From the NCBI GenBank assembly GCA_029204225.1, contig CM055113.1, forward strand, positions 34,762,557 to 34,826,556: 64,000 nucleotides of DNA. Reading direction: 5' to 3'. The notes beneath the pieces were generated by a model, which was not told where the DNA came from, did no database searches, and was given only the letters and a program-made list of their open reading frames with translations. Positions 1-57,880 of this stretch are shown here, in pieces (the first letter of the stretch is position 1; each line of letters opens with the position of its first letter). Position numbers and translations under genes: made by a program. Source of the stretch: Diphasiastrum complanatum (lineage: Eukaryota > Streptophyta > Lycopodiopsida > Lycopodiales > Lycopodiaceae).

Positions 1-484
1 TTATCTATATTATAAGTAGGCAATGTGATAAGAGAATTATGAGAAGGAAAAAGGGTGTTGGGAGCTCTAGGGCCAACAAACGATGTCCTATTTCGTGTAG
101 GATCAAAATCTATACAATCATCTAGACTAATGCTTGTATCAATAAAAAAAAGTTTCTATATCTACAATCTTCGACTTTTCAGACTTTGTACCACTAGAAA
201 AAGCAGCTTCAGAAGTGGAAGGGCTAGCTTCCAAATCGTCAAAAATATTTAACAAAAAAAAAAACAAATGCAGATTGAAACTCAACAAATCTACATTTTT
301 TATTGCAAATTGGGCAATCATCTACAAACTTGAAATCATTATGGAACTTGGTGAACATTCTATCAAGCTTAGCTTTATAGTTATGCTTGTCGAGTGCCAC
401 CATGTCCTTATTCTAAAATCTGAATAAGGGAGTACTGAGTAGAGACTTAAGTTTAAAATAAATCTCATAAAATGCTTCCACACT
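1..484 (-). pseudogene. Gene X, 5' part, left-arm copy (unknown protein)
   Basis: Reverse complement of 56330-56814, where the same sequence leads into gene X. On the minus strand, peptide-like stretches include a CPICNKKC cysteine motif (around 290-310), then, in another frame, a Ser/Glu-rich segment and an Asp-rich segment. They are separated by an in-frame TAG near 422 and by at least one frame change around a poly-A/T run at 250-265. The family is not recognised. The rest of the gene would lie left of base 1. It could be a pseudogene or have introns I cannot place. Confidence 0.45.
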
Positions 485-639
485 AGGACCCTCAGTAATA
501 GAAGGAAAAATTTAAAAAAAGGAGAAAAAGGAGATTTGAAATACTCTAAATTATCACTAATACCAAATTCATGAGAAAAAGAAAGCAGACTAGAATCGAA
601 ATTAGATATTTTAAACATAAAATACAGGAAAAAGATTTC

Positions 640-1490
640 AAATATCGCTCTCAGGTGCAAAATGCTGGTCAGACAAGAACCTCAAGGCAATGTGCGCTCA
701 AAAGAGATATCAGAAAATAGGGTATCAGATCCGAAAACAAGTACAAAGATCAGAAAAGAAAGGAGACGTAAGACACGCTTGAAAGCGATACCGAACCAGA
801 CAGTATCGGTTCCAGGTGCAAGTATGTCAACAGAACGTAAATAGAGGCAAATGTGCCCTTGAAATCGATATTCAGCTCAGAAATCAGGAAATTTGCATAA
901 AAATCCATGCCGAAAATGACGTATTATAGAAAAAATTGCATGTGTCGAGGAGTTTCGAAATTCCGAAAGGACACATGTCGACACAGGATTCATCAAAAAT
1001 ATTTTGCCGTACAAGGAATGATTGATCTGACATTTATCACGTGCAGAATGACACGTGTCACAATATGATTAGTGCACGTGTCCTACACCCACGTGGCCTC
1101 ATACATAACGAGCCATAATTGGCAGTATGGACATAACACATGGACCAGTTACATGCTGCCACATGTCAGCAGCCGTTTTCTTCACACGTGCGAACATTTT
1201 CTATATACTTTGCCTCTGAATTTTTATTTTTTTCTCGTAATTTTTTTGTTTTTCACTCCCAATATCGCTCTCAAGCGCGCTCTCTGTCCGCAATCACTCC
1301 ACCTTCTCATCCGCGCTCGGCACCGATACCACTGTATTTCCAATATCGCTTTCGAGCGTGGTTTAGGGTTCTTCTGATATTCTCTTTTTATCTTGCGCTC
1401 GAAACCGATATTTAGTTCTGGCATCGATCTCAAGTGCCTTCTTATCACAATTTTTTTTGTTTTCATTCTCTGCGCTTGGGTTCGATAATC
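640..1490. repeat. Degenerate GATATCGCTYTCRAGCG-type motif array
   Basis: A recurring motif of the form (A/G)ATATCGCTCTCAAGCGC occurs in both orientations. Examples are near 643 (ATATCGCTCTCAGGTGC), 690 (GCGCTCAAAAGAGATATC), 777 (GCTTGAAAGCGATACCG), 855 (CTTGAAATCGATATTC), 1262 (ATATCGCTCTCAAGCGC), 1341 (ATATCGCTTTCGAGCG), 1395 (CGCTCGAAACCGATATTT) and 1420 (GGCATCGATCTCAAGTG). At 786-813 two halves (CGATACCG and TATCGGTTCC) face each other. Copies flank the CACGTG cluster on both sides. Function is unknown; the mirror copy is at 55323-56173. Confidence 0.6.
1038..1208 (+). promoter_or_regulatory. Putative bidirectional promoter with five CACGTG boxes
   Basis: CACGTG hexamers lie at 1038-1043, 1052-1057, 1075-1080, 1090-1095 and 1185-1190. 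Related CACATGTC/ACATGTCG boxes lie between 965 and 1170. CACGTG is the plant G-box, bound by bZIP and bHLH factors. A TATA-like CTATATAC starts near 1201, facing the H3-like ORF at 1541. Gene X runs the other way, so this is a plausible shared promoter. The mirror copy is at 55605-55775. Confidence 0.5.
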
Positions 1491-1540
1491 AGCTTATAGA
1501 CTATTTTTTTTTAAATTTATTTATTTTTATTCTGAGAATG

Positions 1541-1874
1541 ATGGCTAGGACAAAATCCAATTCTCATTTCATAACCTTTGTACAGCCATTCCATGCCCAT
1601 GTTCCCCCTGGTATTGGCTGTAGATGTGGCAGAAAGCAAGGTTGGCTGAGGGAGACAAGAAAACTTAAGAGATCAACTGGATTGTTGATCCCTACAACTC
1701 CTTTCGGCCGATCTGTGAGAAATGTCACTTGGGCTAGATATTTGTTTTGTCGTGATAGCCATGCAGGCCTTACACGGTGTTGCTGAAGATTTTCTATCCC
1801 AGTTTTTTGAGGATTCTCGTCTTTTGGCCGTGCATGGTAAGCGTATCACCATCATGTCAAAAGTATTTTTCTGA
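1541..1874 (+). pseudogene. Histone H3 / CENH3-like ORF, frameshifted
   Basis: The ORF starts with MARTK, the invariant N-terminus of plant H3 and CENH3, followed by an unrelated short tail. It then has LRETRKLKRSTGLLIP and VRNVT, which line up with the H3 alpha-N/alpha-1 region; LLIP is typical of plant CENH3. The frame shifts by one base between 1730 and 1757. In the new frame AMQALHGVAEDFL, FFEDSRLLAVHGKR and ITIMSK (1758-1862) match H3 alpha-2, loop 2 and alpha-3. A TGA at 1872-1874 ends it about 15 residues before the usual H3 C-terminus. Whether the shift reflects decay, a short unseen intron or sequence error is open. The mirror copy is at 54939-55272. Confidence 0.6.
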
Positions 1875-1990
1875 TCTCTGAATCAGATGCTGGAGAATCT
1901 GATTTAGACCGAGAATCACCCTCTGCTCCTCATGTTATTCGTCCAGCTCCTCAGAAGGTTTCTTCACCAAAAGTGAAGATTATCCAAGAG
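1875..1990 (+). pseudogene. Gene Y exon, 5' half, split by copia-1
   Basis: An open frame rich in Ser, Asp, Glu and Pro runs directly from the end of the H3-like ORF into the copia-1 target site. It is +1 relative to the H3 alpha-2/3 frame. Removing copia-1 and one target-site copy joins this frame without a break to the frame at 6116, giving a continuous exon. The protein is not recognised. It may be the C-terminal extension of a chimeric H3-like protein or a separate gene. Confidence 0.45.
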
Positions 1991-2653
1991 TGTTGGAATT
2001 AAGCAATTTTCACATGGTTTTTGATTTATTTTGACATCTATGTGGATCCACACAGAGGAGCTGTCCACATGAGTGAAATGACACTTGTAATATTGAGATC
2101 CATTATGATTAGCTTTCATTTGAGTCTAATATGACATCTCCTAAATTATAGGAGTTAGGTCCTAGATTGTAGGAATCTAGAAGGTCCACACAAACCACCA
2201 ATGGATGATGTGGCAAACCTGATAGATCTTATCCAAACTGGATATGGATGAGTACAATGAGCTGTCCCACACGTGCTGGATGCAGCTTAGAGAGAGAGTA
2301 TTGTGATTTTGTACTTGATCCATGATGGATCCATTATTGAGCTAATGATGATAAATCTTGGTTTGTGAGGCAATCTTTGTGTTTTGACTCTCTTAAGCTC
2401 TTTCTTTGTGGATGAATGCTTAGTAAATGATAAGTAAACTATTTCTCTGTTATCAGGCCATACAGTAGCTATAATTCACACGTGTGAAGCCATGGATCAC
2501 CTTTTTTGATTGTTTTTGCTTGGAATCACAAAGATTGTCAAGTAGAAGCTAGATTTGGAAGCAATCTTGATATAGATCAAGATCCCAAGCTACCAATCAC
2601 TCTTTGTGGTCATTTGTAGATCATTTTCAGTCCTTAAACTCTGAAGTTTGACA
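1991..2653 (+). repeat. copia-1 5' LTR
   Basis: 663 bases, TGTTGGAATT to TTTGACA, followed at once by the primer binding site. It includes a palindromic CACACGTGTGAA box near 2478 and an AGAGAGAGAG tract near 2290. Confidence 0.92.
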
Positions 2654-2741
2654 TGGTATCAGAGCCAAGTCAAAGAGCTTAGTTGATGATCCAAAGCAAG
2701 GAAGGCTTTTTAAGCTTGATGCTAATGTTTTTCTTGGAAGT

Positions 2742-2960
2742 GTGAACATGGTGAAGGAGGAGCTCAATCAAGTGGAGCTCTGGCATAAGAGGTTGGGCCA
2801 CCCCAACTTCAAATCTATGGAGATGCTATGCACCAAGGATCTTGCTCTTGGCCTTCCAAAGACACTCTCAAAGTGTGGAAAAAGTTGTCAAGCTTGTAGT
2901 CCTCAAAGGCACACAAGCTACCATTTGATATCTCTTCCACTAGATCTACAAAAACATTAG
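2742..2960 (+). pseudogene. copia-1 GAG-pre-integrase zinc-binding region
   Basis: Contains ELWHKRLGHPNF and a CGKSCQAC segment, the HHCC zinc-binding motif before copia integrase (H..H..C..C). The frame is lost near its end: the integrase continues in a different frame from about 2930, giving an early stop at 2958. No gag or protease lies upstream, only about 90 bases after the primer site. Confidence 0.85.
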
Positions 2961-2977
2961 ATCTTATTCATAGTGAT

Positions 2978-4360
2978 GTGCACTCTTTTTCTCAAGAATC
3001 TAATGGAGGTTCGTCTATGTATGTATCTTTTATTGATGATTACTCTAGATACACTTGGATTGAACTTTTGGATTCCAAAAGTAAAGTGTTTGAAGCTTTT
3101 GTTAAGTTCAAAACTCTAGCTGAAAATCAACTTGATGCTAGAATTAAAGTATTGAGAAGTGATAATGGTGGAGAGTATATCTCCACCAAGATGATAGAGT
3201 TTTGTAAATTCAATGGCATTAAGAGAGAACTTACATGTACTTATAGTCCTCAACAAAATCGTATAGCCGAGAGCATGAATAGAACACTATGTGAGTGTGC
3301 TAAGGCTTTAAGGTTAGATGCATCTCTACCTAAGTCCTATTGGGGAGAGGCTATTATTTGTGCAACTTATTTGTATAATAGATTGCCATGTAAGCCCATT
3401 GGAGGCATAACATCTTATGAGGCTCTATTTTGTAAGAAGCCTAATCTTAAAGATCTAAGAATTTTCAGATCTACTTGCTATGTTTTTCAAGCATTAGATA
3501 CAAGAAAAAAGGATGATCCTACTTCTATTAAATGGATCTTTGTTGGTTATGCTGAAAATAGCAAGGGATATAGAGTCGATAATCCAATCACTAAGAAGAT
3601 TTTAGTGAGTAGAGATGTTACTTTTGATGAAGGTAACTACTACAAGTTGAATGAGAAAGCTTCTAATCCATCTTATGTCAAGGATCTTGTAAGGTTTGAG
3701 GAGGAGCCTACATGTGATCAAGATCTTGAAGATCCATCTCAAGATCTGAGGACTCCAAGGAGATCTACAAGAAGGAAGGCCGAGCCCTCGAGGCTCACCT
3801 ATGTTGACAAAGGTGAACAAAGGGAATATCTACATTCACTTACCTCTTATACTTTTCTAACTTCTATGTTTGATGAGCCAACTTGCTTTGAAGAAGCTAT
3901 GGAGTCACAAGAATGGACCAATGCCATGAAAAAAGAGTATTATGCTCTTATGGAGAATCATACATGGAAGCTTGTGGATCTTCCTCAAGGAAGAAAGCCA
4001 CTTGAGTGCAAATGGATCTATAGATTGAAGTGCAATCAAGATGGGAGCATCAACAAACACAAGGCAAGGCTAGTGGCAAAGGGGTTCTTGCAAACCAAGG
4101 GAATAGATTTTGATGAAACTTTTGCTCCTGTTGCTAAGCCAGTTTCCATAAGGTTGATTATTTCTCTTGTAACTACTTTCAATTGGCCTGTATTTCAACT
4201 TGATGTGACTAATGCTTTTCTCAATGGATATTTGGAAGAGGATATTTTCATGAGGCAACCCGAGGGCTTCATCAAAGAAGATCAAGAGGAAAAAGTGTGT
4301 TTGTTGCTAAGAAGCCTTTATGGGCTTAAGCAAGCACTAGAGCTTGGTACTCTAGGTTGA
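2978..4360 (+). pseudogene. copia-1 integrase core plus reverse transcriptase N-part
   Basis: The integrase core has the catalytic acidic residues in LIHSDV (the reading frame starts upstream of 2978), RSDNGGEY and QQNRIAESMNRT, followed by YWGEA and the family's GYAENSKGYRV segment. A basic linker (RRSTRRKAEPSR) leads to the RVT_2 reverse transcriptase: WKLVDLP, CKWIYRLK, KARLVAKGF, FAPVAKP, QLDVTNAFLNG and LYGLKQA. The ORF ends at 4360 through a frameshift just after LYGLKQA. The remaining RT is in the next ORF. It is a polyprotein fragment, not a host gene. Confidence 0.93.
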
Positions 4361-4599
4361 ATACCTTCTTGAACTCTATTAAGTTTGTTGTAAGTGTTTA
4401 TGATCCTTCTTTGTACTTAAGATTTAATGTTGGTAAAATCATCATTCTCATTTTGTATGTTGATGACATTATCCTTGGTGGAAATGATCTTGATGGTATA
4501 CAAGAAGTGAAAGTAGCATTGTTTAAGGAGTTTAAGATGGTGGATCTTGGTAATCTTCATTTCATATTAGGAATAGAAGTCTCGAGAGGCAAGGATTAG
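4357..4599 (+). pseudogene. copia-1 reverse transcriptase, YVDD part
   Basis: Continues the RT after the frameshift. It contains the catalytic LYVDDIILGGND and then VDLGNLHFILGIEV, typical of copia RVT_2. It stops at 4599 where functional elements read on. Confidence 0.92.
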
Positions 4600-4680
4600 A
4601 GTTTTATTTGTCAATCCAAATATGCTTCTTCTATCTTAGAAAAGTTTTAAATCAAAGATTGTAAAGGAGTAGAAACTCCT

Positions 4681-5436
4681 ATGGAGCAAAATGTAAAAGT
4701 TTCCAAAAGTGATGATGAAGCATCCTTTGAGGACATCACACTATATAGGAGACTTGTAGGCTCCTTGATCTATCTTATTATAACTAGACTTGATCTAAGT
4801 TATAGTGTAGGCAAACTAAGCCAATCTATGCAAAATCCATTGGTTTGTCATTGGAAAAATGCAAAAAGGGTGTTGAGGTACATCTCGGCCACCAAGAACT
4901 TTGGCATTTTAAATGATGGATCTAATCTTGCCTTAAGGGCATATTCAAATGATGATTTTGCGGGTAATAAGGTTGATAGGAGATCCACAAGTGCTTTTGT
5001 CACCTTCCTTAGCAATGACATAGTGTCTTGGCTTTCCAAAAAGCAAGATATATATACTATTTCTCTATCGTCAACCGAATTGGAATACAAGGCACTAACA
5101 TCCACAACAAAGGAGATCCTATGGTTGAAGAGGCTTTTGGTGGAATTGCAAGTCATGGAGGCCGAGGAGCAGCCAACAATATTTTGTGACAACCAATCAA
5201 ATCAAGCATTAGCAACCAATCCCGCATTTCATGCAAGGAGCAAGCACATAGAGATTGCTCACCATTTTGTGAGGAAAAAGGTTCAAGCAAAGGAGATCAA
5301 GCTACATAATCTTTCTTCTTCAGATTGCCTTGCTGAGCTACTCACTAAAGCCTTGCCAAAGGCTTCATTTATCAAGTTAAGATCAGCCTTAGGAGTTGTA
5401 GATAGATGTACTATAGTTGTATCATGTAAAAATTGA
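4681..5436 (+). pseudogene. copia-1 RNase H domain
   Basis: A 251-residue frame with copia RNase H landmarks: RLVGSLIYL, ITRLDLSYSV, YSNDDFAGNKVDRRSTSA, VSWLSKKQ, LSSTELEYKAL, FCDNQSNQALATNP, RSKHIEIAHHFVR and LLTKALP. It ends 8 bases before the 3' LTR, as in intact copia elements, and is separated from the YVDD part by stops at 4597 and near 4650. Confidence 0.92.
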
Positions 5437-5443
5437 GGATGAG

Positions 5444-6110
5444 TGTTAGAAATAAGCAATTTTTACATGGTTTTTGATTTATTTTGACATCTATGTGGAT
5501 CCACATGTGCAAGGACCTGTCCACACGTGTGAAATGACACTTGTAATATTCAGATCCATTTTGATTAGCTTTCATTTGAGTCTAATATGACATCTCCTAA
5601 ATTATAGGAGTTAGGTCCTAGATTGTAGGAATCTAGAAGGTCAACACAAACCACCAATGGATGATGTGGCAAACTTGATAGATCTTATCCAATCTGGATA
5701 TGGATGAGTACAATGAGCTGTCCCACACGTGCTGGATGCAGCTTAGAGAGAGAGTATTGTGATTTTGTACTTGATCCATGATGGATCCATTATTGAGCTA
5801 ATGATGATAAATCTTGGTTTGTGAAGCAATCTTTGTGTTTTGACACTCTTAAGCACTTTCTTTGTGGATGAATGCTTAGTAAATGATATGTAAACTATTT
5901 CTATGTTGTCAGGCCGTATAGTAGCTGTACTTCACACGTGTGAATCCGTGGATCATCTTTTATTATTGTTCTTGCTTGGAATCACAAAGATTGTCAAGTA
6001 GAAGCTAGATTTGGAAGCTAGTCTTCATATAGATCAAGATCCCATGCTACCAATCACTCTTTGTGATCATTTGTAGATGAATTTCAGTCCTTAAACTCTG
6101 AAATTTGACA
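5444..6110 (+). repeat. copia-1 3' LTR
   Basis: 667 bases, TGTTAGAAAT to TTTGACA, preceded by the purine-rich AATTGAGGATGAG. It is clearly diverged from the 5' LTR: I count about 15 differences in the first 135 bases and fewer beyond. Confidence 0.92.
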
Positions 6111-6115
6111 AAGAG

Positions 6116-7310
6116 GAGCTCGACAAAATAACCGAAAAATCTATAAATATTGTGTCTACTTCTCTTTCTGCTCTTGTACATAATCTTTTTGTCAGAATTC
6201 CATATGATTCCATGCAAGTTTATTTTGATTCCGAGCATTATAACCAATACGAGGCTTACTTAGCTAATAAAATTGATCTTCTTGGCAATTATTTTGATTT
6301 CTTTCTTCCAGATTCAAATATAAACTATAGATTAGGTCCCAAATTTTGTGTCGAGCTGAAAGAAAAAGCATCAAAGATTACAGATGTTATGATAGAAGCC
6401 GAAGGAAACTTTTTGCAACATAGTATTAGTTCTGATTCTCATGGTGTAGTTTTTGTTGTTAGTCCATTTTTTATGGGAGCGGTGAAGGCAAAAGACGCCA
6501 ATTTTGAAAGGGCTGTATATTTCATCGAATGCAGTCCAATGGCAAAGAGAATCAGTAAGGATTTCTCGATTGTTTTTATTGCTTTAATTTGGATTGTTGC
6601 AGTCAGCATTGCTTTCGTAAGTAAGGATTGTTTTGATTTTTATTTTGATTGTTGCAGTCAGCATTGGAACCTGAACATTCTTTCTGTAAAAATGAATGAG
6701 GGAGTATCAAATTTTCTATGTGTATAAGTAAACTCAGCTGCTAATACACATACATAGAGAAGTTGATTTTTTACTTCATGATGTCATTCGAGAAATACCT
6801 ACAACGACAACCTCAATTGGAGGGATAACCATTAAATCTCTCGAGGCATATTCAATTTATCTCTGATAGGCATGTATTTTTTTTTGGTTTAAATCTATCA
6901 TCATAGTATAAATAAATTTTTTGTCGTAATATTACTAAATGCAGTGTATACAATAAAGAGACACTTTTAGTTGTGCATGGTTCGTCTTGTACAATACAAA
7001 GCTCTTTTTTGAGTGATATAATTTACAAGTGGATGTAGATGTTGAAAATGTAATATTTTGTTCATTTGTAGTTTCTTTCATTCTGATTCATATTTCTTTA
7101 CTATCATTGTTTGTAATTTGCTGATTCACGTGTTTTGTGATGATAGTTCACTCTTGAGTTGTATACTCCCGACGATGTATATAGATTTCGGCAAGAGTTG
7201 ATCAGAATCTATGTACAGAACAGTGTAAGCATTACACCTAAAATCGAGGGCCCTAAAAAGCAATTTGCTCCTGCCTTAATAGCCTTTTAGGTTGCTCAGG
7301 ATGCAGATAT
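6116..7310 (+). pseudogene. Gene Y exons downstream of copia-1 (unknown protein)
   Basis: The frame that began before copia-1 continues here as ELDKITEKSINIV and reads openly to about 6556, where ATCA|GTAAGG is a good splice donor. A second coding-like segment starts after an acceptor near 7146 with LYTPDDVYRFRQELIR. It reads to a TAG near 7288, after EGPKKQFAPAL. The protein looks helical and has no motif I recognise. Module B begins at the end with its copia fragment, so the gene's 3' end is lost here. The AT-rich DNA between 6730 and 7140 looks intronic. The mirror copy is at 49489-50697. Confidence 0.45.
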
Positions 7311-7602
7311 TAAGAGTTTCTATCGACTCAAGCAAACACCTAGAGGTTGGTACTTTAAGTTGCATATCTATCTCAACTCCCTTGGATTTGTGATAAACTC
7401 TTATGTGTCTTCATTGTATGTCAAATGTAATGATGGTAAGATCATTTTTATGGTTTTATATGTTGATGATATTATTGTTACAAGAAATGATCTTAGTGAC
7501 ATAAGAGATGTCAAGATAGCATTGTCTAGTGAGTTTAATGCATTGATTATTGTCTCCACGTATAGGCTCTTGCTTGTCTTTCCTTGTGATCACCGGTTTT
7601 AA
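7311..7602 (+). pseudogene. copia reverse transcriptase fragment in module B (outer left)
   Basis: Encodes YRLKQTPRGWYFKL, then VLYVDDIIVTRNDL: the copia RT segment from LYGLKQ to just past the YVDD active site. It then runs into unrelated sequence and a stop at 7602. It is a truncated relic belonging to the copia-3 debris. Confidence 0.85.
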
Positions 7603-7735
7603 CATGTCCTTTGCTCAATCAAGCATTGCCTTAACATATAGAATCATTGCTTATCGTAGGTACTATTGTAGCCCTCAATGATGATAATGATATTCTTAGT
7701 TTATTAAGGGATTGTTAACGTAATTTAAAAAAAAA

Positions 7736-8108
7736 AATTAGAAGTACATGGAGTTGTGCAAAGAGCTTCTACATTCATAGGGATTGGAACGGCCCGGATT
7801 TGCCCTAATCCTAGTATGAATGAGTGGTTACGAACTCTATCGTTTATGCATGCAGATATTGTGTTATACTATTTTTTTAAGACACGATTAAGGTTTAAAA
7901 TAAGTAAAACGATAAGATAGCTTGCGGACTCTTGGAAAGCATGGATATGCTCAAGAAGTTACAAGAATTGTACATTACCTGTTTGCTCTACGACAAGTAT
8001 GAGTATTGGTATGGCATGGATTTGCCCCACATTTCATGTACCGATCGAAGCTACTTGTTTGTTTACGATATGCTACATAGTTTATACAGTTTATTTTCAA
8101 ATGCATAA
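7736..8108 (+). pseudogene. Gene X exon copy with shared frameshift (outer left)
   Basis: Matches the open exon at 57505-57879. Conserved peptide pieces include RASTFIGIGT, PNPSMNEWLRTLSFMH, ACGLLESMDMLKKL and YWYGMDLPH. A one-base deletion in AGTAAAACGATAAG (the parent has AGTAAAAATGATAAG) breaks the frame. The same lesion is in all four module B copies, so it arose before B was duplicated. Confidence 0.7.
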
Positions 8109-8519
8109 TGATTAATTAAATTAAAAGATAAGGACCAAAACCATTACACTGATCAACATGCACTCGTCCTGATATGGTAACGATATTGTTCGGCCTGTCG
8201 CTATAAGCATTTTTCAGTAAGGGAAGATTGGACTATGAGCTTTCATTTACATTGCATGTTGATTAGTTAAGTAAACTTATTTTGTACATGGATAACAACT
8301 GACATTCAGCATTGACACGTCTTCCTCACTATGCTAACTTGCGCAGTTTTGTGTGGTGGGATGGTGGTAGTGGATGTTTTGAAATAGGTTTTGCTTTACG
8401 ATGCTTTATTAGTACTATATACTTTTAAGCTATGTTTTTTCTTGTTGATTTTATGAATAAAGGGTTTTAAAAGTTTTGGTCTTGACTTATTGGTCTTGAC
8501 TTGTCAAGAGTTCTGTTAA

Positions 8520-9684
8520 TCTCTATCTATCACTACAATATTCTGGACGATTTTCGACCCTATTACCGAGGTTGCATCTTTTTGGAATCCAACAAAGATA
8601 AGCATAATAGCTAGCAAAGATGAGCGCAATAGCCAGCAACATTGACACCAGTAGCTAGAATGGCGAATGGAGATGAATGAGAGCGTCAGAATGGAGACGA
8701 GTGAGAGCACCAGAATGCAAGAATGCTAGAACCAACAAACCACAAATGAGGATGGAGATACAGCATGGAGAGCGCAAAAGATGCAAGAAGCAAGAATGCA
8801 AGAACTAGCAAAGGAGAATGGAGAGTGTGCGAATGGAGGATGGAGTAGATGGAGTGCCAATGGAGAACATAGCAAGTAGCAATACGTGATAGATGACGCT
8901 ACAATCGAAAGGTGAAAGGCGAAAAAACGTCTACAAATGCATCCAAAAACTCCATTTTTGGAAGGATTGATGGGCATGTGTACATTGTAAGACTACCATA
9001 ATCAATGAAAATTGCATCTCAATAATGTCTTATTTAATGCTGATATTAATAAATTTTGATATCATGATTTGATACACTGGTGGCATAGGGTAAAGGGGAC
9101 AAATTTGATCAGGTTATGGTGTATCCCTAGTATTGCCCGAGCCTAGACCACTCTAGCCAGGTTTCCAAAGCCAATACACAAGAATATGCACCTTTTCTAG
9201 GTATTGAAAAAGTAAATAACCAAAATGGTATGCTCTTTAATACCAGGCTGATACCACGCAAGACCCTACATACCTGCCCAACACTTGGAAAGAACTAATG
9301 TAGTGTTACCCTAGAAACTAGGGTTATGAATAGTGCGATATTCGTTTTTAAATGACGCACCCAAACACTAGCTCAGGTTTAAACTTTAGCTCAGGTTTTC
9401 ATTTTTTCACGTTCACCTTCGATGACACACCAAAACAGGAGCGGAAGTTTAAACTTTTGATTTTGTGGCAGTTTTTCTTTCCTCCGTTCCCGACGCTCTG
9501 ATCTCTCTTTCGCCAAGCGCTCTACAACACATTCGCTGCCTGCCTGCCTGCCAGCTTCACCGGCTTCACAATTCAGAGATAGCTCCAGAGGACTGTGTTT
9601 CACGGAAGGCGATATTGGAATTTAGCGTGTTTCAGGGTTCAGGGTTCAGTGTTAAACAATTGTGAGTAGCAGTATGCATAGGCA
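8520..9684 (+). repeat. Module A, outer left copy (SNF2-upstream module)
   Basis: About 1.17 kb also found at 47115-48279 and, next to the SNF2 gene, at 37274-38417 (both inverted). It opens near 8531 with CACTACAATATTC, which resembles a CACTA-type terminus, and ends at ATAGGCA (9678-9684). In between are a CTCCATTC/GAATGGAG-rich quasi-repeat (8640-8880), a short ACCCTAG...CTAGGGT palindrome (9305-9325) and the small ORF at 9465. This copy has a 23-base tandem unit near 8670-8715 that the SNF2-side copy lacks. Confidence 0.88.
9465..9665 (+). CDS. Small ORF in module A, outer left (unknown, 66 aa)
   Basis: Starts MAVFLSSVPDALISLSPS, Ser/Leu-rich like an organelle-targeting leader. It ends at a TGA inside CAATTGTGAGTAGCAG, which also looks like a splice donor (GTGAGT). 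The same ORF lies directly upstream of the SNF2 gene at 37293-37493 with one residue changed. It may be a duplicated first exon; whether it is translated is unknown. Confidence 0.35.
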   Translation: MAVFLSSVPDALISLSPSALQHIRCLPACQLHRLHNSEIAPEDCVSRKAILEFSVFQGSGFSVKQL

Positions 9685-10833
9685 TTACCACAGTAGTTAG
9701 AATGTAGGCATTACCAAAAACTATAAAAACGACAACCAAACGATATTGGTTTTCATTCTCTCTCTACATAACCTCTCTCTAAAGTCAAACTTCTTAAAGG
9801 GCCAACTTTGAGTCCATATTTTTCCTAATGAAATTCATATTCTTTCCTATTGATGGTGAATGCAAGATAGAAGGAATTGGTAGTGTACCAATTGGTATTG
9901 AATTCACTATAATTCGTAAAGATGTACTTTTTGTGCCTAATCTCACTATGAATCTCATTAGTGTTGGCAATATGCTAGATGATGGTTTCCAATTTGATTC
10001 TGGAAAGGATTGTTGCTTGGTTGAGAGGGATGGTGATGTGGTAGCAAGAGAAACTAGATGTGGTAAGGATTTTCAAAATTGATGCTAATCCTTGTGGAAG
10101 TGTGGCCAATATGATCTGGGATCATCTCAAGGAGGAGAGGCCAAGTGATCTACCTCAACTTATGTTCCAAGATGGTAAGGCTCATGAATATGGTGCTTTG
10201 GCAAAAGCATGTGGAGAGTTATTGCCAAGGAGGTCTACTTCTCAGCAATTCTCTTATCTTGTTCATTTGGATGATCTCATTTCATCATGTATAAGCAAAG
10301 GTGGTGTGATTTCATGTGACTTCTTATTTGAAGTCTTCAATTGGAGGTATCTCTTATCAATGGTGCTTGATATGAAGATTGCAATAGTTGATAGTTTGTC
10401 AATATTCCTTTGCATGAAAGGAATAAGGAGGATCTAATCTCAATCAAGAGGATGATGGTAGGATTCTCAAATCTATCAAAAATCCAAGTATATGATGGAT
10501 TTGCCAAGGCTTGAGGAGTTTTCTCAACACATGGTTCCAAGGAGATCTTCAAGAGGCAAGGCCAAGTATTTGTGGCTCACAATACATAGATAAGAGAGGC
10601 AATTTTTAGGTTGTATCCACTTCAACACATTTACTTTTGCTTCTCTTTCATTACTTGATGTACTATCTTGCTTTGTTGAGATTTCTACATCTCAAAATTG
10701 GATTGAGGCAATGGTTGTCTTGTATCATGCCTATAGTAGGGACATATTTATTTTCATTATTTGCTTAGATTTGTTTCCAAATCTTTTAGAAAACAAGTGG
10801 TTGTGTCATCAAGTATATGCTCTTGGTTCTAGT
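9685..10833 (+). mobile_element. copia-3 debris, protease to RT-linker part (left)
   Basis: The frame 9828-10082 has GIGSV and DVLFVPNLTMNLISVG, the C-terminal part of copia protease, then LISVG..LDDG..F and a jump to the next frame (10060-10437, IDANPC onwards). Near 10545 RRSSRGKAKY resembles the copia-1 linker before RT. Large parts are deleted; no LTR is seen on this side. It is cut at 10833 by the insertion of copia-2. Bases 10438-10833 hold only frayed remains. Confidence 0.8.
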
Positions 10834-11780: not shown

Positions 11781-11787
11781 CTCCCCC

Positions 11788-12453: not shown

Positions 12454-12712
12454 ACAAGATCCTATTATTGAATGATAAGGATACTAGCGCATCTGCTCCT
12501 TTTCTTCGATTGTTCGAGGACACTGGTCCTTTGACAATTTGAGACCTAGTTCCATTGGTGAGAGAGCTAACATGCAATTAACCATATTATATCTGACTAA
12601 CATATTGCAGGTGTGACTCTGTTGAGTAATGTAGATCAACTTTTGATTTTTGTCTTTATAAATTTGAATACGAATGCAGAAATGAACTTCGTCCAGATCA
12701 GTCATGTCGATT

Positions 12713-15626: not shown

Positions 15627-15631
15627 CTAGT

Positions 15632-45965: not shown

Positions 45966-45970
45966 ACTAG

Positions 45971-47114: not shown

Positions 47115-48279
47115 TGCCTATGCATACTGCTACTCACAATTGTTTAACACTGAACCCTGAACCCTGAAACACGCTAAATTCCAATATCGCCTTCCGTGAA
47201 ACACAGTCCTCTGGAGCTATCTTTGAATTGTGAAGCCGGTGAAGCTGGCAGGCAGGCAGGCAGCGAATGTGTTGTAGAGCGCTTGGCGAAAGAGAGATCA
47301 GAGCGTCGGGAACGGAGGAAACAAAAACTGCCACAAAATCAAAAGTTTAAACTTCCGCTCCTGTTTTGGTGTGTCATCGAAGGTGAACGTGAAAAAATGA
47401 AAACCTGAGCTAAAGTTTAAACCTGAGCTAGTGTTTGGGTGCGTCATTTAAAAACGAATATCGCACTATTCATAACCCTAGTTTCTAGGGTAACACTACA
47501 TTAGTTCTTTCCAAGTGTTGGGCAGGTATGTAGGGTCTTGCGTGGTATCAGCCTGGTATTAAAGAGCATACCATTTTGGTTATTTACTTTTTCAATACCT
47601 AGAAAAGGTGCATATTCTTGTGTATTGGCTTTGGAAACCTGGCTAGAGTGGTCTAGGCTCGGGCAATACTAGGGATACACCATAACCTGATCAAATTTGT
47701 CCCCTTTACCCTATGCCACCAGTGTATCAAATCATGATATCAAAATTTATTAATATCAGCATTAAATAAGACATTATTGAGATGCAATTTTCATTGATTA
47801 TGGTAGTCTTACAATGTACGCATGCCCATCAATCCTTCCAAAAATGGAGTTTTTGGATGCATTTGTAGACGTTTTTTCGCCTTTCACCTTTCGATTGTAG
47901 CGTCATCTATCACGTATTGCTACTTGCTATGTTCTCCATTGGCACTCCATCTACTCCATTCTCCATTCGCACACTCTCCATTCTCCTCTGCTAGTTCTTG
48001 CATTCTTGCTTCTTGCATCTTTTGCGCTCTCCATGCTGTATCTCCATCCTCATTTGTGGTTTGTTGGTTCTAGCATTCTTGCATTCTGGTGCTCTCACTC
48101 GTCTCCATTCTGACGCTCTCATTCATCTCCATTCGCCATTCTAGCTACTGGTGTCAATGTTGCTGGCTATTGCGCTCATCTTTGCTAGCTATTACGCTTA
48201 TCTTTGTTGGATTCCAAAAAGATGCAACCTCGGTAATAGGGTCGAAAATCGTCCAGAATATTGTAGTGATAGATAGAGA
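47115..48279 (-). repeat. Module A, outer right copy
   Basis: Mirror of 8520-9684, with the small ORF at 47134-47334 (MAVFVSSVPDAL start) and the extra 23-base tandem unit near 48100. Together with the adjacent module B it forms a direct repeat of 37274-39612. Confidence 0.9.
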
Positions 48280-49488
48280 TTAACAGAACTCTTGACAAGT
48301 CAAGACCAATAAGTCAAGACCAAAACTTTTAAAACCCTTTATTCATAAAATCAACAAGAAAAAACATAGCTGAAAAGTATATAGTACTAATAAAGCATCG
48401 TAAAGCAAAACCTATTTCAAAACATCCACTACCACCATCCCACCACACAAAACTGCACAAGTTAGCATAGTGAGGAAGACGTGTCAATGCTGAATGTCAG
48501 TTGTTATCCATGTACAAAATAAGTTTACTTAACTAATCAACATGCAATGTAAATGAAAGCTCATAGTCCAATCTTCCCTTACTGAAAAATGCTTATAGCG
48601 ATAGGCCGAACAATATCGTTACCATATCAGGACGAGTGCATGTTGATCAGTGTAATGGTTTTGGTCCTTATCTTTTAATTTAATTAATCATTATGCATTT
48701 GAAAATAAACTGTATAAACTATGTAGCATATTGTAAACAAACAAGTAGCTTCGATCGGTACATGAAGTGTGGGGCAAATCCATGCCATACCAATACTCAT
48801 ACTTGTCGTAGAGCAAACAGGTAATGTACAATTCTTGTAACTTCTTGAGCATATCCATGCTTTCCAAGAGTCCGCAAGCTATCTTATCGTTTTACTTATT
48901 TTAAACCTTAATCGTGTCTTAAAAAAATAGTATAACACAATATCTGCATGCATAAACGATAGAGTTCGTAACCACTCATTCATACTAGGATTAGGGCAAA
49001 TCCGGGCCGTTCCAATCCCTATGAATGTAGAAGCTCTTTGCACAACTCCATGTACTTCTAATTTTTTTTTTTAAATTACGTTAACAATCCCTTAATAAAC
49101 TAAGAATATCATTATCATCATTGAGGGCTACAATAGTACCTACGATAAGCAATGATTCTATATGTTAAGGCAATGCTTGATTGAGCAAAGGACATGTTAA
49201 AACCGGTGATCACAAGGAAAGACAAGCAAGAGCCTATACGTGGAGACAATAATCAATGCATTAAACTCACTAGACAATGCTATCTTGACATCTCTTATGT
49301 CACTAAGATTATTTCTTGTAACAATAATATCATCAACATATAAAACCATAAAAATGATCTTACCATCATTACATTTGACATACAATGAAGACACATAAGA
49401 GTTTATCACAAATCCAAGGGAGTTGAGATAGATATGCAACTTAAAGTACCAACCTCTAGGTGTTTGCTTGAGTCGATAGAAACTCTTA
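48280..49488 (-). repeat. Module B, outer right copy
   Basis: Mirror of 7311-8519. RT fragment at 49197-49439 (one residue changed in VTRNNL), frameshifted gene X exon at about 48690-49063, 14-base duplication present near 48300. Confidence 0.9.
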
Positions 49489-50697
49489 ATATCTGCATCC
49501 TGAGCAACCTAAAAGGCTATTAAGGCAGGAGCAAATTGCTTTTTAGGGCCCTCGATTTTAGGTGTAATGCTTACACTGTTCTGTACATAGATTCTGATCA
49601 ACTCTTGCCGAAATCTATATACATCGTCGGGAGTATACAACTCAAGAGTGAACTATCATCACAAAACACGTGAATCAGCAAATTACAAACAATGATAGTA
49701 AAGAAATATGAATCAGAATGAAAGAAACTACAAATGAACAAAATATTACATTTTCAACATCTACATCCACTTGTAAATTATATCACTCAAAAAAGAGCTT
49801 TGTATTGTACAAGACGAATCATGCACAACTAAAAGTGTCTCTTTATTGTATACACTGCATATATTGAACGAAAATTAGTAATATTACGACAAAAAATTTA
49901 TTTATACTATGATGATAGATTTAAACCAAAAAAAAATACATGCCTATCAGAGATAAATTGAATATGCCTCGAGAGATTTAATGGTTATCCCTCCAATTGA
50001 GGTTGTCGTTGTAGGTATTTCTCGAATGACATCATGAAGTAAAAAATCAACTTCTCTATGTATGTGTATTAGCAGCTGAGTTTACTTATACACATAGAAA
50101 ATTTGATACTCCCTCATTCATTTTTACAGAAAGAATGTTCAGGTTCCAATGCTGACTGCAACAATCAAAATAAAAATCAAAACAATCCTTACTTACGAAA
50201 GCAATGCTGACTGCAACAATCCAAATTAAAGCAATAAAAACAATCGAGAAATCCTTACTGATTCTCTTTGCCATTGGACTGCATTCGATGAAATATACAG
50301 CCCTTTCAAAATTGGCGTCTTTTGCCTTCACCGCTCCCATAAAAAATGGACTAACAACAAAAACTACACCATGAGAATCAGAACTAATACTATGTTGCAA
50401 AAAGTTTCCTTCGGCTTCTATCATAACATCTGTAATCTTTGATGCTTTTTCTTTCAGCTCGACACAAAATTTGGGACCTAATCTATAGTTTATATTTGAA
50501 TCTGGAAGAAAGAAATCAAAATAATTGCCAAGAAGATCAATTTTATTAGCTAAGTAAGCCTCGTATTGGTTATAATGCTCGGAATCAAAATAAACTTGCA
50601 TGGAATCATATGGAATTCTGACAAAAAAATTATGTACAAGAGCAGAAAGAGAAGTAGACACAATATTTATAGATTTTTCGGTTATTTTGTCGAGCTC
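49489..50697 (-). pseudogene. Gene Y exons, right-arm copy
   Basis: Mirror of 6116-7310. Main exon 50697 down to about 50257 (one residue changed in the early ALVHNFFVRIPYDS segment) with donor ATCA|GTAAGG; second exon near 49652-49509 with LYTPDDVYRFRQELIR. It contains 14 bases near 49870 that are absent on the left. Confidence 0.45.
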
Positions 50698-50702
50698 CTC
50701 TT

Positions 50703-51369
50703 TGTCAAATTTCAGAGTTTAAGGACTGAAATTGATCTACAAATGATCACAAAGAGTGATTGGTAGCATGGGATCTTGATCTATATGAAGACTAGCTTCC
50801 AAATCTAGCTTCTACTTGACAATCTTTGTGATTCCAAGCAAGAACAATAATAAAAGATGATCCACGGATTCACACGTGTGAAGTACAGCTACTATACGGC
50901 CTGACAACATAGAAATAGTTTACATATCATTTACTAAGCATTCATCCACAAAGAAAGTGCTTAAGAGTGTCAAAACACAAAGATTGCTTCACAAACCAAG
51001 ATTTATCATCATTAGCTCAATAATGGATCCATCATGGATCAAGTACAAAATCACAATACTCTCTCTCTAAGCTGCATCCAGCACGTGTGGGACAGCTCAT
51101 TGTACTCATCCATATCCAGATTGGATAAGATCTATCAAGTTTGCCACATCATCCATTGGTGGTTTGTGTTGACCTTCTAGATTCCTACAATCTAGGACCT
51201 AACTCCTATAATTTAGGAGATGTCATATTAGACTCAAATGAAAGCTAATCAAAATGGATCTGAATATTACAAGTGTCATTTCACACGTGTGGACAGGTCC
51301 TTGCACATGTGGATCCACATAGATGTCAAAATAAATCAAAAACCATGTAAAAATTGCTTATTTCTAACA
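50703..51369 (-). repeat. copia-1 3' LTR (right arm)
   Basis: Mirror of 5444-6110; ends TGTCAAAT and TAACA on the plus strand. Confidence 0.9.
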
Positions 51370-51376
51370 CTCATCC

Positions 51377-52132
51377 TCAATTTTTACATGATACAACTAT
51401 AGTACATCTATCTACAACTCCTAAGGCTGATCTTAACTTGATAAATGAAGCCTTTGGCAAGGCTTTAGTGAGTAGCTCAGCAAGGCAATCTGAAGAAGAA
51501 AGATTATGTAGCTTGATCTCCTTTGCTTGAACCTTTTTCCTCACAAAATGGTGAGCAATCTCTATGTGCTTGCTCCTTGCATGAAATGCGGGATTGGTTG
51601 CTAATGCTTGGCTTGATTGGTTGTCACAAAATATTGTTGGCTGCTCCTCGGCCTCCATGACTTGGAATTCCACCAAAAGCCTCTTCAACCATAGGATCTC
51701 CTTTGTTGTGGATGTTAGTGCCTTGTATTCCAATTCGGTTGACGATAGAGAAATAGTATATATATCTTGCTTTTTGGAAAGCCAAGACACTATGTCATTG
51801 CTAAGGAAGGTGACAAAAGCACTTGTGGATCTCCTATCCACCTTATTACCCGCAAAATCATCATTTGAATATGCCCTTAAGGCAAGATTAGATCCATCAT
51901 TTAAAATGCCAAAGTTCTTGGTGGCCGAGATGTACCTCAACACCCTTTTTGCATTTTTCCAATGACAAACCAATGGATTTTGCATAGATTGGCTTAGTTT
52001 GCCTACACTATAACTTAGATCAAGTCTAGTTATAATAAGATAGATCAAGGAGCCTACAAGTCTCCTATATAGTGTGATGTCCTCAAAGGATGCTTCATCA
52101 TCACTTTTGGAAACTTTTACATTTTGCTCCAT
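51377..52132 (-). pseudogene. copia-1 RNase H (right arm)
   Basis: Same landmarks as 4681-5436; two residues differ (LQVMEA to FQVMEA, NQSN to NQSS). Confidence 0.92.
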
Positions 52133-52213
52133 AGGAGTTTCTACTCCTTTACAATCTTTGATTTAAAACTTTTCTAAGATAGGAGAAGCATATTTGGATT
52201 GACAAATAAAACT

Positions 52214-52456
52214 CTAATCCTTGCCTCTCGAGACTTCTATTCCTAATATGAAATGAAGATTACCAAGATCCACCATCTTAAACTCCTTAAACAATGCTAC
52301 TTTCACTTCTTGTATACCATCAAGATCATTTCCACCAAGGATAATGTCATCAACATACAAAATGAGAATGATGATTTTACCATCATTAAATCTTAAGTAC
52401 AAAGAAGGATCATAAACACTTACAACAAACTTACTAGAGTTCAAGAAGGTATTCAA
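52214..52456 (-). pseudogene. copia-1 RT YVDD part (right arm)
   Basis: LYVDDIILGGND present; two residues differ from the left copy (NSSKF and FNDGK). Confidence 0.9.
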
Positions 52457-53835
52457 CCTAGAGTACCAAGCTCTAGTGCTTGCTTAAGCCCATAAAGGCT
52501 TCTTAGCAACAAACACACTTTTTCCTCTTGATCTTCTTTGATGAAGCCCTCGGGTTGCCTCATGAAAATCTCCTCTTCCAAATATCCATTGAGAAAAGCA
52601 TTAGTCACATCAAGTTGAAATACAGGCCAATTGAAAGTAGTTACAAGAGAAATAATCAACCTTATGGAAACTGGCTTAGCAATAGGAGCAAAAGTTTCAT
52701 CAAAATCTATTCCCTTGGTTTGCAAGAACCCCTTTGCCACTAGCCTTGCCTTGTGTTTGTTGATGCTCCCATCTTGATTGCACTTCAATCTATAGATCCA
52801 TTTGCACTCAAGTGGCTTTCTTCCTTGAGGAAGATCCACAAGCTTCCATGTATGATTCTCCATAAGAGCATAATACTCTTTTTTCATGGCATTGCTCCAT
52901 TCTTGTGACTCCATAGCTTCTTCAAAGCAAGTTGGCTCATCAAACATAGAAGTTAGAAAAGTATAAGAGGTAAGTGAATGTAGATATTCCCTTTGTTCAC
53001 CTTTGTCAACATAGGTGAGCCTCGAGGGCTCGGCCTTCCTTCTTGTAGATCTCCTTGGAGTCCTCAGATCTTGAGATGGATCTTCAAGATCTTGATCACA
53101 TGTAGGCTCCTCCTCAAACCTTACAAGATCCTTGACATAAGATGGATTAGAAGCTTTCTCATTCAACTTGTAGTAGTTACCTTCATCAAAAGTAACATCT
53201 CTACTCACTAAAATCTTCTTAGTGATTGGATTATCGACTCTATATCCCTTGCTATTTTCAGCATAACCAACAAAGATCCATTTAATAGAAGTAGGATCAT
53301 CCTTTTTTCTTGTATCTAATGCTTGAAAAACATAGCAAGTAGATCTGAAAATTCTTAGATCTTTAAGATTAGGCTTCTTACAAAATAGAGCCTCATAAGA
53401 TGTTATGCCTCCAATGGGCTTACATGGCAATCTATTATACAAATAAGTTGCACAAATAATAGCCTCTCCCCAATAGGACTTAGGTAGAGATGCATCTAAC
53501 CTTAAAGCCTTAGCACACTCACATAGTGTTCTATTCATGCTCTCGGCTATACGATTTTGTTGAGGACTATAAGTACATGTAAGTTCTCTCTTAATGCCAT
53601 TGAATTTACAAAACTCTATCATCTTGGTGGAGATATACTCTCCACCATTATCACTTCTCAATACTTTAATTCTAGCATCAAGTTGATTTTCAGCTAGAGT
53701 TTTGAACTTAACAAAAGCTTCAAACACTTTACTTTTGGAATCCAAAAGTTCAATCCAAGTGTATCTAGAGTAATCATCAATAAAAGATACATACATAGAC
53801 GAACCTCCATTAGATTCTTGAGAAAAAGAGTGCAC
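52453..53835 (-). pseudogene. copia-1 integrase and RT N-part (right arm)
   Basis: Same 460-residue frame as 2978-4360, ending in the same frameshift after LYGLKQA. Three residue changes noted (EWSNAM, FAPIAKP, EEEIFM). Confidence 0.93.
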
Positions 53836-53852
53836 ATCACTATGAATAAGAT

Positions 53853-54071
53853 CTAATGTTTTTGTAGATCTAGTGGAAGAGATATCAAATGGTAGCTTGT
53901 GTGCCTTTGAGGACTACAAGCTTGACAACTTTTTCCACACTTTGAGAGTGTCTTTGGAAGGCCAAGAGCAAGATCCTTGGTGCATAGCATCTCCATAGAT
54001 TTGAAGTTGGGGTGGCCCAACCTCTTATGCCAGAGCTCCACTTGATTGAGCTCCTCCTTCACCATGTTCAC
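53853..54071 (-). pseudogene. copia-1 GAG-pre-integrase (right arm)
   Basis: Identical peptide to 2742-2960, ELWHKRLGHPNF and CGKSCQAC. Confidence 0.85.
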
Positions 54072-54159
54072 ACTTCCAAGAAAAACATTAGCATCAAGCT
54101 TAAAAAGCCTTCCTTGCTTTGGATCATCAACTAAGCTCTTTGACTTGGCTCTGATACCA

Positions 54160-54822
54160 TGTCAAACTTCAGAGTTTAAGGACTGAAAATGATCTACAAA
54201 TGACCACAAAGAGTGATTGGTAGCTTGGGATCTTGATCTATATCAAGATTGCTTCCAAATCTAGCTTCTACTTGACAATCTTTGTGATTCCAAGCAAAAA
54301 CAATCAAAAAAGGTGATCCATGGCTTCACACGTGTGAATTATAGCTACTGTATGGCCTGATAACAGAGAAATAGTTTACTTATCATTTACTAAGCATTCA
54401 TCCACAAAGAAAGAGCTTAAGAGAGTCAAAACACAAAGATTGCCTCACAAACCAAGATTTATCATCATTAGCTCAATAATGGATCCATCATGGATCAAGT
54501 ACAAAATCACAATACTCTCTCTCTAAGCTGCATCCAGCACGTGTGGGACAGCTCATTGTACTCATCCATATCCAGTTTGGATAAGATCTATCAGGTTTGC
54601 CACATCATCCATTGGTGGTTTGTGTGGACCTTCTAGATTCTTACAATCTAGGACCTAACTCCTATAATTTAGGAGATGTCATATTAGACTCAAATGAAAG
54701 CTAATCATAATGGATCTCAATATTTCAAGTGTCATTTCACTCATGTGGACAGCTCCTCTGTGTGGATCCACATAGATGTCAAAATAAATCAAAAACCATG
54801 TGAAAATTGCTTAATTCCAACA
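54160..54822 (-). repeat. copia-1 5' LTR (right arm)
   Basis: Mirror of 1991-2653 with only about two to four differences seen. The primer site abuts at 54159. Confidence 0.9.
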
Positions 54823-54938
54823 CTCTTGGATAATCTTCACTTTTGGTGAAGAAACCTTCTGAGGAGCTGGACGAATAACATGAGGAGCAGAGGGTGATTC
54901 TCGGTCTAAATCAGATTCTCCAGCATCTGATTCAGAGA

Positions 54939-55272
54939 TCAGAAAAATACTTTTGACATGATGGTGATACGCTTACCATGCACGGCCAAAAGACGAGAAT
55001 CCTCAAAAAACTGGGATAGAAAATCTTCAGCAACACCGTGTAAGGCCTGCATGGCTATCACGACAAAACAAATATCTAGCCCAAGTGACATTTCTCACAG
55101 ATCGGCCGAAAGGAGTTGTAGGGATCAACAATCCAGTTGATCTCTTAAGTTTTCTTGTCTCCCTCAGCCAACCTTGCTTTCTGCCACATCTACAGCCAAT
55201 ACCAGGGGGAACATGGGCATGGAATGGCTGTACAAAGGTTATGAAATGAGAATTGGATTTTGTCCTAGCCAT
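54939..55272 (-). pseudogene. Histone H3 / CENH3-like ORF, right-arm copy
   Basis: Mirror of 1541-1874 with the same frameshift between VRNVT and AMQAL and the same early TGA. Because both copies share the lesion, it predates the inverted duplication. Confidence 0.6.
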
Positions 55273-55322
55273 CATTCTCAGAATAAAAATAAATAAATTT
55301 AAAAAAAAATAGTCTATAAGCT

Positions 55323-56173
55323 GATTATCGAACCCAAGCGCAGAGAATGAAAACAAAAAAAATTGTGATAAGAAGGCACTTGAGATCGATGCCAGAACTA
55401 AATATCGGTTTCGAGCGCAAGATAAAAAGAGAATATCAGAAGAACCCTAAACCACGCTCGAAAGCGATATTGGAAATACAGTGGTATCGGTGCCGAGCGC
55501 GGATGAGAAGGTGGAGTGATTGCGGACAGAGAGCGCGCTTGAGAGCGATATTGGGAGTGAAAAACAAAAAAATTACGAGAAAAAAATAAAAATTCAGAGG
55601 CAAAGTATATAGAAAAAGTTCGCACGTGTGAAGAAAACGGCTGCTGACATGTGGTAGCATGTAACTGGTCCATGTGTTATGTCCATACTGCCAATTATGG
55701 CTCGTTATGTATGAGGCCACGTGGGTGTAGGACACGTGCACTAATCATATTGTGACACGTGTCATTCTGCACGTGATAAATGTCAGATCAATCATTCCTT
55801 GTACGGCAAAATATTTTTGATGAATCCTGTGTCGACATGTGTCCTTTCGGAATTTCGAAACTCCTCGACACATGCAATTTTTTCTATAATACGTCATTTT
55901 CGGCATGGATTTTTATGCAAATTTCCTGATTTCTGAGCTGAATATCGATTTCAAGGGCACATTTGCCTCTATTTACGTTCTGTTGACATACTTGCACCTG
56001 GAACCGATACTGTCTGGTTCGGTATCGCTTTCAAGCGTGTCTTACGTCTCCTTTCTTTTCTGATCTTTGTACTTGTTTTCGGATCTGATACCCTATTTTC
56101 TGATATCTCTTTTGAGCGCACATTGCCTTGAGGTTCTTGTCTGACCAGCATTTTGCACCTGAGAGCGATATTT
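55323..56173. promoter_or_regulatory. Divergent promoter region and GATATCGCT motif array, right-arm copy
   Basis: Mirror of 640-1490. All five CACGTG boxes are kept (for example 55623-55628 and 55770-55775), as are the GATATCGCT-type repeats. Here both flanking units, the H3-like ORF and gene X, are present in full context. Confidence 0.5.
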
Positions 56174-56329
56174 GAAATCTTTTTCCTGTATTTTTTGTTT
56201 AAAATATCTAATTTCGATTCTAGTCTGCTTTCTTTTTCTCATGAATTTGGTATTAGTGATAATTTAGAGTATTTCAAATCTCCTTTTTCTCCTTTTTTTA
56301 AATTTTTCCTTCTATTACTGAGGGTCCTA

Positions 56330-57880
56330 GTGTGGAAGCATTTTATGAGATTTATTTTAAACTTAAGTCTCTACTCAGTACTCCCTTATTCAGATTTTAG
56401 AATAAGGACATGGTGGCACTCGACAAGCATAACTATAAAGCTAAGCTTGATAGAATGTTCACCAAGTTCCATAATGATTTTAAGTTTGTAGATGATTGCC
56501 CAATTTGCAATAAAAAATGTAGATTTGTTGAGTTTCAATCTGCATTTGTTTTTTTCTTTTGTTAAATATTTTTGACGATTTGGAAGCTAGCCCTTCCACT
56601 TCTGAAGCTGCTTTTTCTAGTGGTACAAAGTCTGAAAAGTCGAAGATTGTAGATATAGAAACTTTTTTTTATTGATACAAGCATTAGTCTAGATGATTGT
56701 ATAGATTTTGATCCTACACGAAATAGGACATCGTTTGTTGGCCCTAGAGCTCCCAACACCCTTTTTCCTTCTCATAATTCTCTTATCACATTGCCTACTT
56801 ATAATATAGATAATAATTCTTTTTCGACATTATCGGATATATCAGATCTTTTTTATTTCACTGAAGCTGAGACTCTTTGCATTTTGAGCAAAAAGCTTGA
56901 TGAATTTTTAGATATAATTGATTTTGATGTTGATGATCTTCTCCCTGGTGTTGACAATGTACATAATGATGAGCTTTATTCAGAAAAAGATTGCCTAAAA
57001 ATGGTTGTGGAGGAAACGTGCAATAAAGAATATGATCTGCCTTCTGAAGAGGAGTTTCTCAGAATTCAAAGTCATCTTGGTATTCCAAAACCAACTGTCT
57101 ATTCACCAACTATATTGATATCAAAAGGTGGACATAATATTGATGGAGAGACAATAATCATGGAAGACAAAGCCGGATGCGTAAGTTTTGTATCTTATTA
57201 TGTACCAGTAGATTCGTTATGTCAGATTATATACTGGAGCTAACTTTGGATTTTTTCATTTCAGGAAACAATTTTCCTTGATGATTTCGTAATTTGTCGA
57301 GGAGATAAGTGTTGCCCATTCAAAGTTTCATCAACATGGTGAGACAATGATTATGGCAATCAAGACACTGTCTCATTTTCTTGGAGGACATGATTTTAAT
57401 AAGGTGCATAGATTTATTGTTTATCGTAGGTACTATTGTAACCCTCAATTATGGTAATGATATTCTTAGCATATTAAGGGATTGTTAACCTAATTTCAAA
57501 AAAGTTCTTAGAAGTACATGGAGTTGTGCAACGTGCTTCTACATTCATAGGGATTGGAACGACATGGATTTGCCCTAATCCTAGTATGAATGAGTGGTTA
57601 CGAACTCTATCTTTTATGCATGTAGATATTGTGTTATATTGTTTTTTTAAGACACGATTAAGGTTTAAGATAAGTAAAAATGATAAGATAGCTTGCGGAC
57701 TCTTGGAAAGCATGGATATGCTCAAGAAGTTACGAGAATTGTACATTACTTGTTTGCTCTATGACAAGTATAAGTATTGGTATGGCATGGATTTGCCCCA
57801 CACTTCATGTACCAGTCCAAGCTACTTATTTGTTTGTGATATGCTACATATTTTATACAGCTTATTTTTTATTGCATAAT
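56330..57880 (+). CDS. Gene X, unknown intron-bearing gene (fullest copy)
   Basis: Runs from the right arm into single-copy DNA. Pieces: NKDMVALDKHNYKAKLDRMF and DDCPICNKKC (56330-56560, with one TAG at about 56397); an Asp/Ser-rich stretch through 56600-56790; the open frame 56791-57180 (SDISDLFYFTEAETL, EEEFLRIQSHLGIPKP, GGHNIDGETIIMEDK), ending at donor GCCGGATGC|GTAAGT. An exon follows TTTCATTTCAG at 57265 (ETIFLDDFVICRGDK, then in another frame HFLGGHDFNK). Last, 57505-57879 is open to a stop (RASTFIGIGT, ACGLLESMDMLKKLRELYI, YWYGMDLPH). No domain recognised. The early TAG and a frame change leave open whether it is still functional. The last exon is frameshifted in all four module B copies but intact here. 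Confidence 0.5.

Follow-up and report, generated by a model that had tools for sequence, protein, structure and literature searches.

A large inverted repeat in transposon-rich DNA of Diphasiastrum complanatum, probably a recent inverted segmental duplication

A stretch of 64,000 nucleotides of contig CM055113.1 from Diphasiastrum complanatum (hereafter the window) contains a locus that is repeated in inverted orientation, for which an initial annotation had offered four readings: a recent inverted segmental duplication, a palindromic amplicon under gene conversion, a source of double-stranded RNA silencing, or an assembly error. We asked which of these best accounts for the locus. The first fits best, and it appears probable that the repeat is a recent inverted segmental duplication in the plant chromosome, made by template switching during repair or replication near a Copia-derived segment (R, described below); wrongly joined haplotypes persist as a less likely reading.

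Self-BLASTN of the window returned a single inverted match (18,385 columns, 99.57%; 1-18368 to 56813-38435). The comparison that the initial annotation had suggested, between 1-18399 and 38418-56814 in reverse complement, gave a global alignment that ran end to end with 57 substitutions (0.31% of the 18,379 aligned positions, a Kimura distance of 0.0031), 36 of them transitions, and six small indels (1, 14, 1, 5, 2 and 14 bp), leaving only the edge base 56814 unmatched. This arm-to-arm match is far above chance level and bears out the annotated repeat: a single locus is present as two long inverted copies of high identity, nested older elements included. The homology extends to window position 1, so that the outer boundary and the complete arm length lie outside the view and the arms measure at least 18.4 kb. 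The left inner edge stands where it had been placed, at 18399, but on the right, homology runs 1,144 bp further inward than the annotated limit of 38418, to 37274; a spacer does lie between the arms, but the portion not shared with them is 18.9 kb long and not 20 kb.

1..18399, plus strand: left arm, its outer end cut by the window start (inverted match and global alignment)
38418..56813, minus strand: right arm, inverted copy of 1-18399 (inverted match and global alignment)
18400..37273, no strand assigned: unshared spacer, with an RVT_2 match, a DUF4218 match below cut-off and a RAD5-like fragment

The arms are filled with transposon remains in a nested arrangement, with two elements delimited by their long terminal repeats (LTRs).

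1991..6110, plus strand: Copia-1, LTR retrotransposon of the left arm (LTR pair 94%, ends, target duplication, domains)
1986-1990 and 6111-6115: AAGAG target duplication of Copia-1, left arm
10834..15626, minus strand: Copia-2 (LTR ends, target duplication, gag and RVT_2 domains)
10829-10833 and 15627-15631: CTAGT target duplication of Copia-2, left arm

The LTRs of Copia-1 start with TGTTGG/TGTTAG and end with GACA, and immediately past the 5' LTR lies TGGTATCAGAGCC, which we take to be the plant primer-site motif. Pfam domains follow in the order gag_pre-integrase, integrase core (rve) and RVT_2; gag was not seen in this element. With paired TG..CA LTRs, a putative primer site, a target duplication and the integrase placed before the reverse transcriptase (RT), Copia-1 has the features expected of a Ty1/Copia element. 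Copia-2 has the ends TGTTGG...CCAACA, TGGTATCAAAGC adjoining position 15073, and Copia gag and RVT_2 domains; integrase was not found in those of its reading frames that were scanned with Pfam. It is flanked on both sides by pieces of another, plus-strand Copia, whose RT part (17120-17479) was recognised by Pfam and whose upstream part (10045-10434) was recognised by eye only. Among the 120 of 4,485 matches listed for the Copia protein, those named to species are mostly from plants; the top match is to the oomycete Phytophthora ramorum (31% identity), the next species-named ones to Sesamum and Aristolochia (42%).

Both elements, with their 5-bp target duplications, occupy equivalent places in the two arms, as had been annotated, and none of the listed arm substitutions or indels hits AAGAG or CTAGT. 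The LTR pair of Copia-1 has diverged by 5.6%, about 18 times the arm divergence, and the two comparable parts of the Copia-2 LTRs by 11.5-11.7%, about 37 times. Since LTR divergence so greatly exceeds arm divergence, and since elements and duplications are shared by both arms, the inverted copying must be later than both Copia insertions. Substitution rates of 1.3e-8 and 7e-9 per site per year would place the split of the arms at ~120 and 220 thousand years ago, respectively. At 2.5e-9 substitutions per site per year, the rate of Populus tremula as quoted in a Salix study (PMC7023750), the estimate becomes ~620 thousand years.

Beyond the transposons, no host gene was recognised in the arms by Pfam in the 15 left-arm reading frames scanned out of 45 with at least 70 residues: seven gave Copia domains, the only domains above cut-off, seven gave nothing, and one (1367-1783) gave a histone match of 19.4 bits (E 0.0013), below the curated cut-off of 26.4. 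Rfam returned no match at gathering thresholds.

At the inner edges of the arms lie a Copia-derived segment of 1,208 bp (R), present twice in direct orientation within each arm, and a neighbouring segment (X).

7312..8519, plus strand: R copy A1, 99.5% to 17192-18399, with RVT_2
17192..18399, plus strand: R copy A2, forming the inner end of the left arm (self-match, RVT_2)
48280..49487, minus strand: R copy B1, mirror of A1 (self-match)
38418..39611, minus strand: R copy B2, mirroring A2 but 1,194 bp long; its inward neighbour is X, where A2 has C
8520..9684, plus strand: X, left-arm copy (self-match)
47115..48279, minus strand: X, right-arm copy, mirror of 8520-9684 (self-match)
37274..38417, minus strand: additional, incomplete tandem copy of X, present only on the right, matching 47115-48279 and 8520-9684

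X follows R at three of four places, while at 18399/18400, where the homology between the arms stops at the end of R, a different sequence (C) follows. The order is thus F-R-X-Y-R and then C on the left, and F-R-X-Y-R-X and then a helicase fragment on the right. The extra X copy, which accounts for the 1,144 bp of homology past 38418 and is absent from the left arm, carries nine private substitutions, one 24-bp deletion and one 3-bp insertion. The left edge of A1 coincides with the exact start of RVT_2 homology, which makes this edge a breakpoint; across the left edge of A2 the RT reading frame is continuous. Among the 11 variable sites of R, private changes number three each in A1 and B1 and two each in A2 and B2, and the one informative site pairs A1 with B1, setting them apart from A2 and B2; among the 15 variable sites of X, private substitutions number three, three and nine in the copies beside A1, B1 and B2. 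Because of this grouping in R and the nine changes against three and three in X, the direct tandem repeat would predate the inverted copy, an order that rests on few sites. Divergence between A2 and B2 inside R is not raised (four substitutions, 0.33%), and inspection of the inner-edge junctions revealed no clear microhomology.

Just beyond the right arm, 57408-58649 resembles both C (89-92.5% over parts, 85.7% with gaps counted) and the beginning of R (90%), and carries 13 different bases where R has the 281 bp at 18119-18399. C and the beginning of R therefore seem to belong to a single older repeat. The stretch 63950-64000, 51 bp identical to R at 7739-7789 and cut by the window end, is probably another copy of R. 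We considered whether the R copies, lying 9.88 kb apart, were LTRs bounding an 11-kb element, and discarded this since R starts inside the Copia RT reading frame; for the 281-bp part as a solo LTR or Helitron, neither a primer site nor a CTRR end was seen. The sequence 18300-18420 folds no better than its shuffles (z -0.08).

On the other side of the right-hand X copy, the spacer ends in a gene fragment.

19451-19684: RVT_2 match in the spacer
33506..37273, minus strand: RAD5/SMARCA3-like gene fragment (Pfam, TBLASTN, three-frame translation)

The fragment encodes SNF2, RING finger and helicase C domains (Pfam). Plants rank best among its species-named matches (120 of 399 listed), the first being from Ensete, Papaver, Vanilla and Dendrobium, which cover 61-98% of the query at 44-54% identity. 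A TBLASTN search with 11 relatives, among them five that have an N-terminal HIRAN domain, gave nothing above 37266 at E 1e-3; since the matches stop there, recognisable helicase homology begins at the junction with X, and a recognisable N-terminal part is missing. Three-frame translation indicates an apparent frameshift near 36998, where no plausible intron was seen by eye, and the fragment is probably a pseudogene. A CAG is completed by the base beside the junction with X; an intron boundary is therefore possible there, in which case X and the helicase fragment may have adjoined originally, with no breakpoint between them. The fragment reads DTGLGKT where the displayed relatives covering the motif read DMGLGKT. 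Elsewhere in the spacer, 21463-22467 is a tandem-repeat cluster with long TG and GA runs, and 26339-26773 has a DUF4218 match of 25.6 bits, just under the Pfam cut-off of 27; DUF4218 domains accompany CACTA-type transposons.

The differences between the arms tell how they arose. Transitions at CG or CHG sites make up 19 of the 36, against 6.8 expected from the cytosines of the arm (binomial p 5.5e-6), with 11 at CG (3.3 expected) and eight at CHG (3.5 expected). Six pairs of older repeats served for comparison, and in all six the CG and CHG transitions taken together exceed expectation, although the counts are small and the X pair among them is not independent of the arms; in part 2 of the Copia-2 LTRs, CG alone is at expectation (3 vs 3.0). 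We read the excess as the mark of methylated-cytosine decay, which is how methylated plant DNA mutates. Taken together, all 57 differences are clustered (variance/mean 1.78, p 0.002; p 0.002-0.003 over two computations), which raised the possibility of gene-conversion patches, but the clustering vanishes once the CG/CHG transitions are set aside: the remaining 38 are evenly spread (variance/mean 0.87, p 0.68). Nor did the longest-run test find identical tracts beyond chance, the longest identical run of 1,746 bp having p 0.19 with 57 sites and p 0.66 with 38. From the CG/CHG excess and this even spread, the arms would be two real diverged sequences and not one molecule read twice; they look like two long-lived sequences that have diverged since one event, with no visible conversion. 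The same signature offers a simple, read-free way to separate genuinely diverged copies from single-molecule artefacts.

This bears directly on two of the alternatives. A fold-back artefact of library preparation or sequencing (a missed adapter or an amplification chimera), in which one molecule is read on both strands, yields an inverted repeat of near-perfect identity; 57 substitutions, of which 36 are transitions and 19 lie at CG/CHG sites, are unlike read errors, and the inner ends of the arms differ in structure. We regard such an artefact as extremely improbable, the part of the assembly-error proposal that the methylation-type signature strongly contradicts. A palindrome maintained for a biological role, through gene conversion between its arms or as a source of double-stranded RNA, is a quite improbable reading, even though identity, length and arrangement are like those of plant sex-region or PAI/VIM palindromes (PMC7023750, PMC13213937): only Copia domains rose above the Pfam cut-off in the 15 of 45 left-arm frames scanned, conversion tracts are absent from the differences once CG/CHG transitions are set aside, so that the proposed amplicon under conversion finds no support, and a transcript forming a hairpin would need to run through ~20 kb of spacer, a long distance for a simple hairpin.

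The other form of assembly error deserves more weight. Two haplotypes differing by inversion of the spacer, each with one arm, may have been wrongly chained into one contig, one arm lying beside C and the other beside X and the RAD5-like fragment; we judge this possible but unlikely. Two alleles would be expected to differ in this way, by 0.31% and with a genuine germline mutation signature; a divergence of this size is typical also of two haplotypes in an outcrossing plant, and the same R segment abuts both spacer ends. The mutation signature fits two copies on one chromosome as well as two haplotypes and does not decide between them. Against a haplotype join stands that it requires a heterozygous inversion plus a wrong join, and, as weak evidence, that the window is free of any N. 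Recent inverted segmental duplication is thus the best-fitting of the readings offered, with wrongly joined haplotypes retained beside it as the minority case.

For the favoured duplication, the starting locus would already have contained the old nested Copia elements and the direct tandem repeat of R and X. It would then have been copied in inverted orientation beside itself, around the 18.9-kb spacer, by repair-associated replication in which a broken end switched template near R and copying proceeded outward for at least 18.4 kb. We infer the switch from the place of R at the inner edge, its role being positional only. Afterwards the arms would have drifted by ordinary, largely methylation-driven mutation, in which we see no special function. 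More speculatively, and in our estimate rather doubtful, the replication rearrangement that used the tandem Copia-derived segment as a switch may also, in one chain of events, have severed the RAD5-like helicase gene, leaving the remnant at one end of the spacer, and the repeat-flanked spacer would then flip to and fro in the population. As consequences of the mechanism, the spacer would be expected to invert between the arms, and one R-X-Y unit to drop out between the direct copies of R.

Large inverted repeats are known from other plants, and some are functional. The palindromes of the Salix purpurea W chromosome are reported as large inverted repeats with ~20-kb highly conserved stretches among arms that contain genes, and evidence for gene conversion was tested against a second species (PMC7023750); the present locus resembles them as a large plant inverted repeat, but its arms consist of the remains of transposons and show no sign of gene conversion. 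Like the inverted gene pairs VIM4-VIM2 and PAI4-PAI1 of Arabidopsis Cvi, reported to produce small RNAs, the former pair brought close by a deletion (PMC13213937), it is a natural inverted duplication in a plant genome, but one with a spacer of ~20 kb and arms without a recognised gene. The response regulator repeats of the Populus trichocarpa Y region are likewise inverted partial duplicates in a plant, with arms of at most 3.8 kb that carry gene fragments and for which small RNAs are proposed (PMC7465354). In yeast, the mechanism behind inverted duplications after double-strand breaks has reportedly been tested (PMC10622511); an inverted copy arising from repair is proposed in both cases, here with a mechanism that is only inferred. 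We rate the present locus as a further example of the known plant repeats (PMC7023750, PMC7465354, PMC13213937). It appears to lack the features that make known cases notable, namely recognised arm genes, signs of conversion and close spacing; nothing found supports a silencing or amplicon function, and it looks otherwise ordinary. If real, it would show, in a datable and nearly intact case, how large inverted duplications are acquired by plant chromosomes within nests of transposons, and the locus would be a site prone to recurrent inversion.
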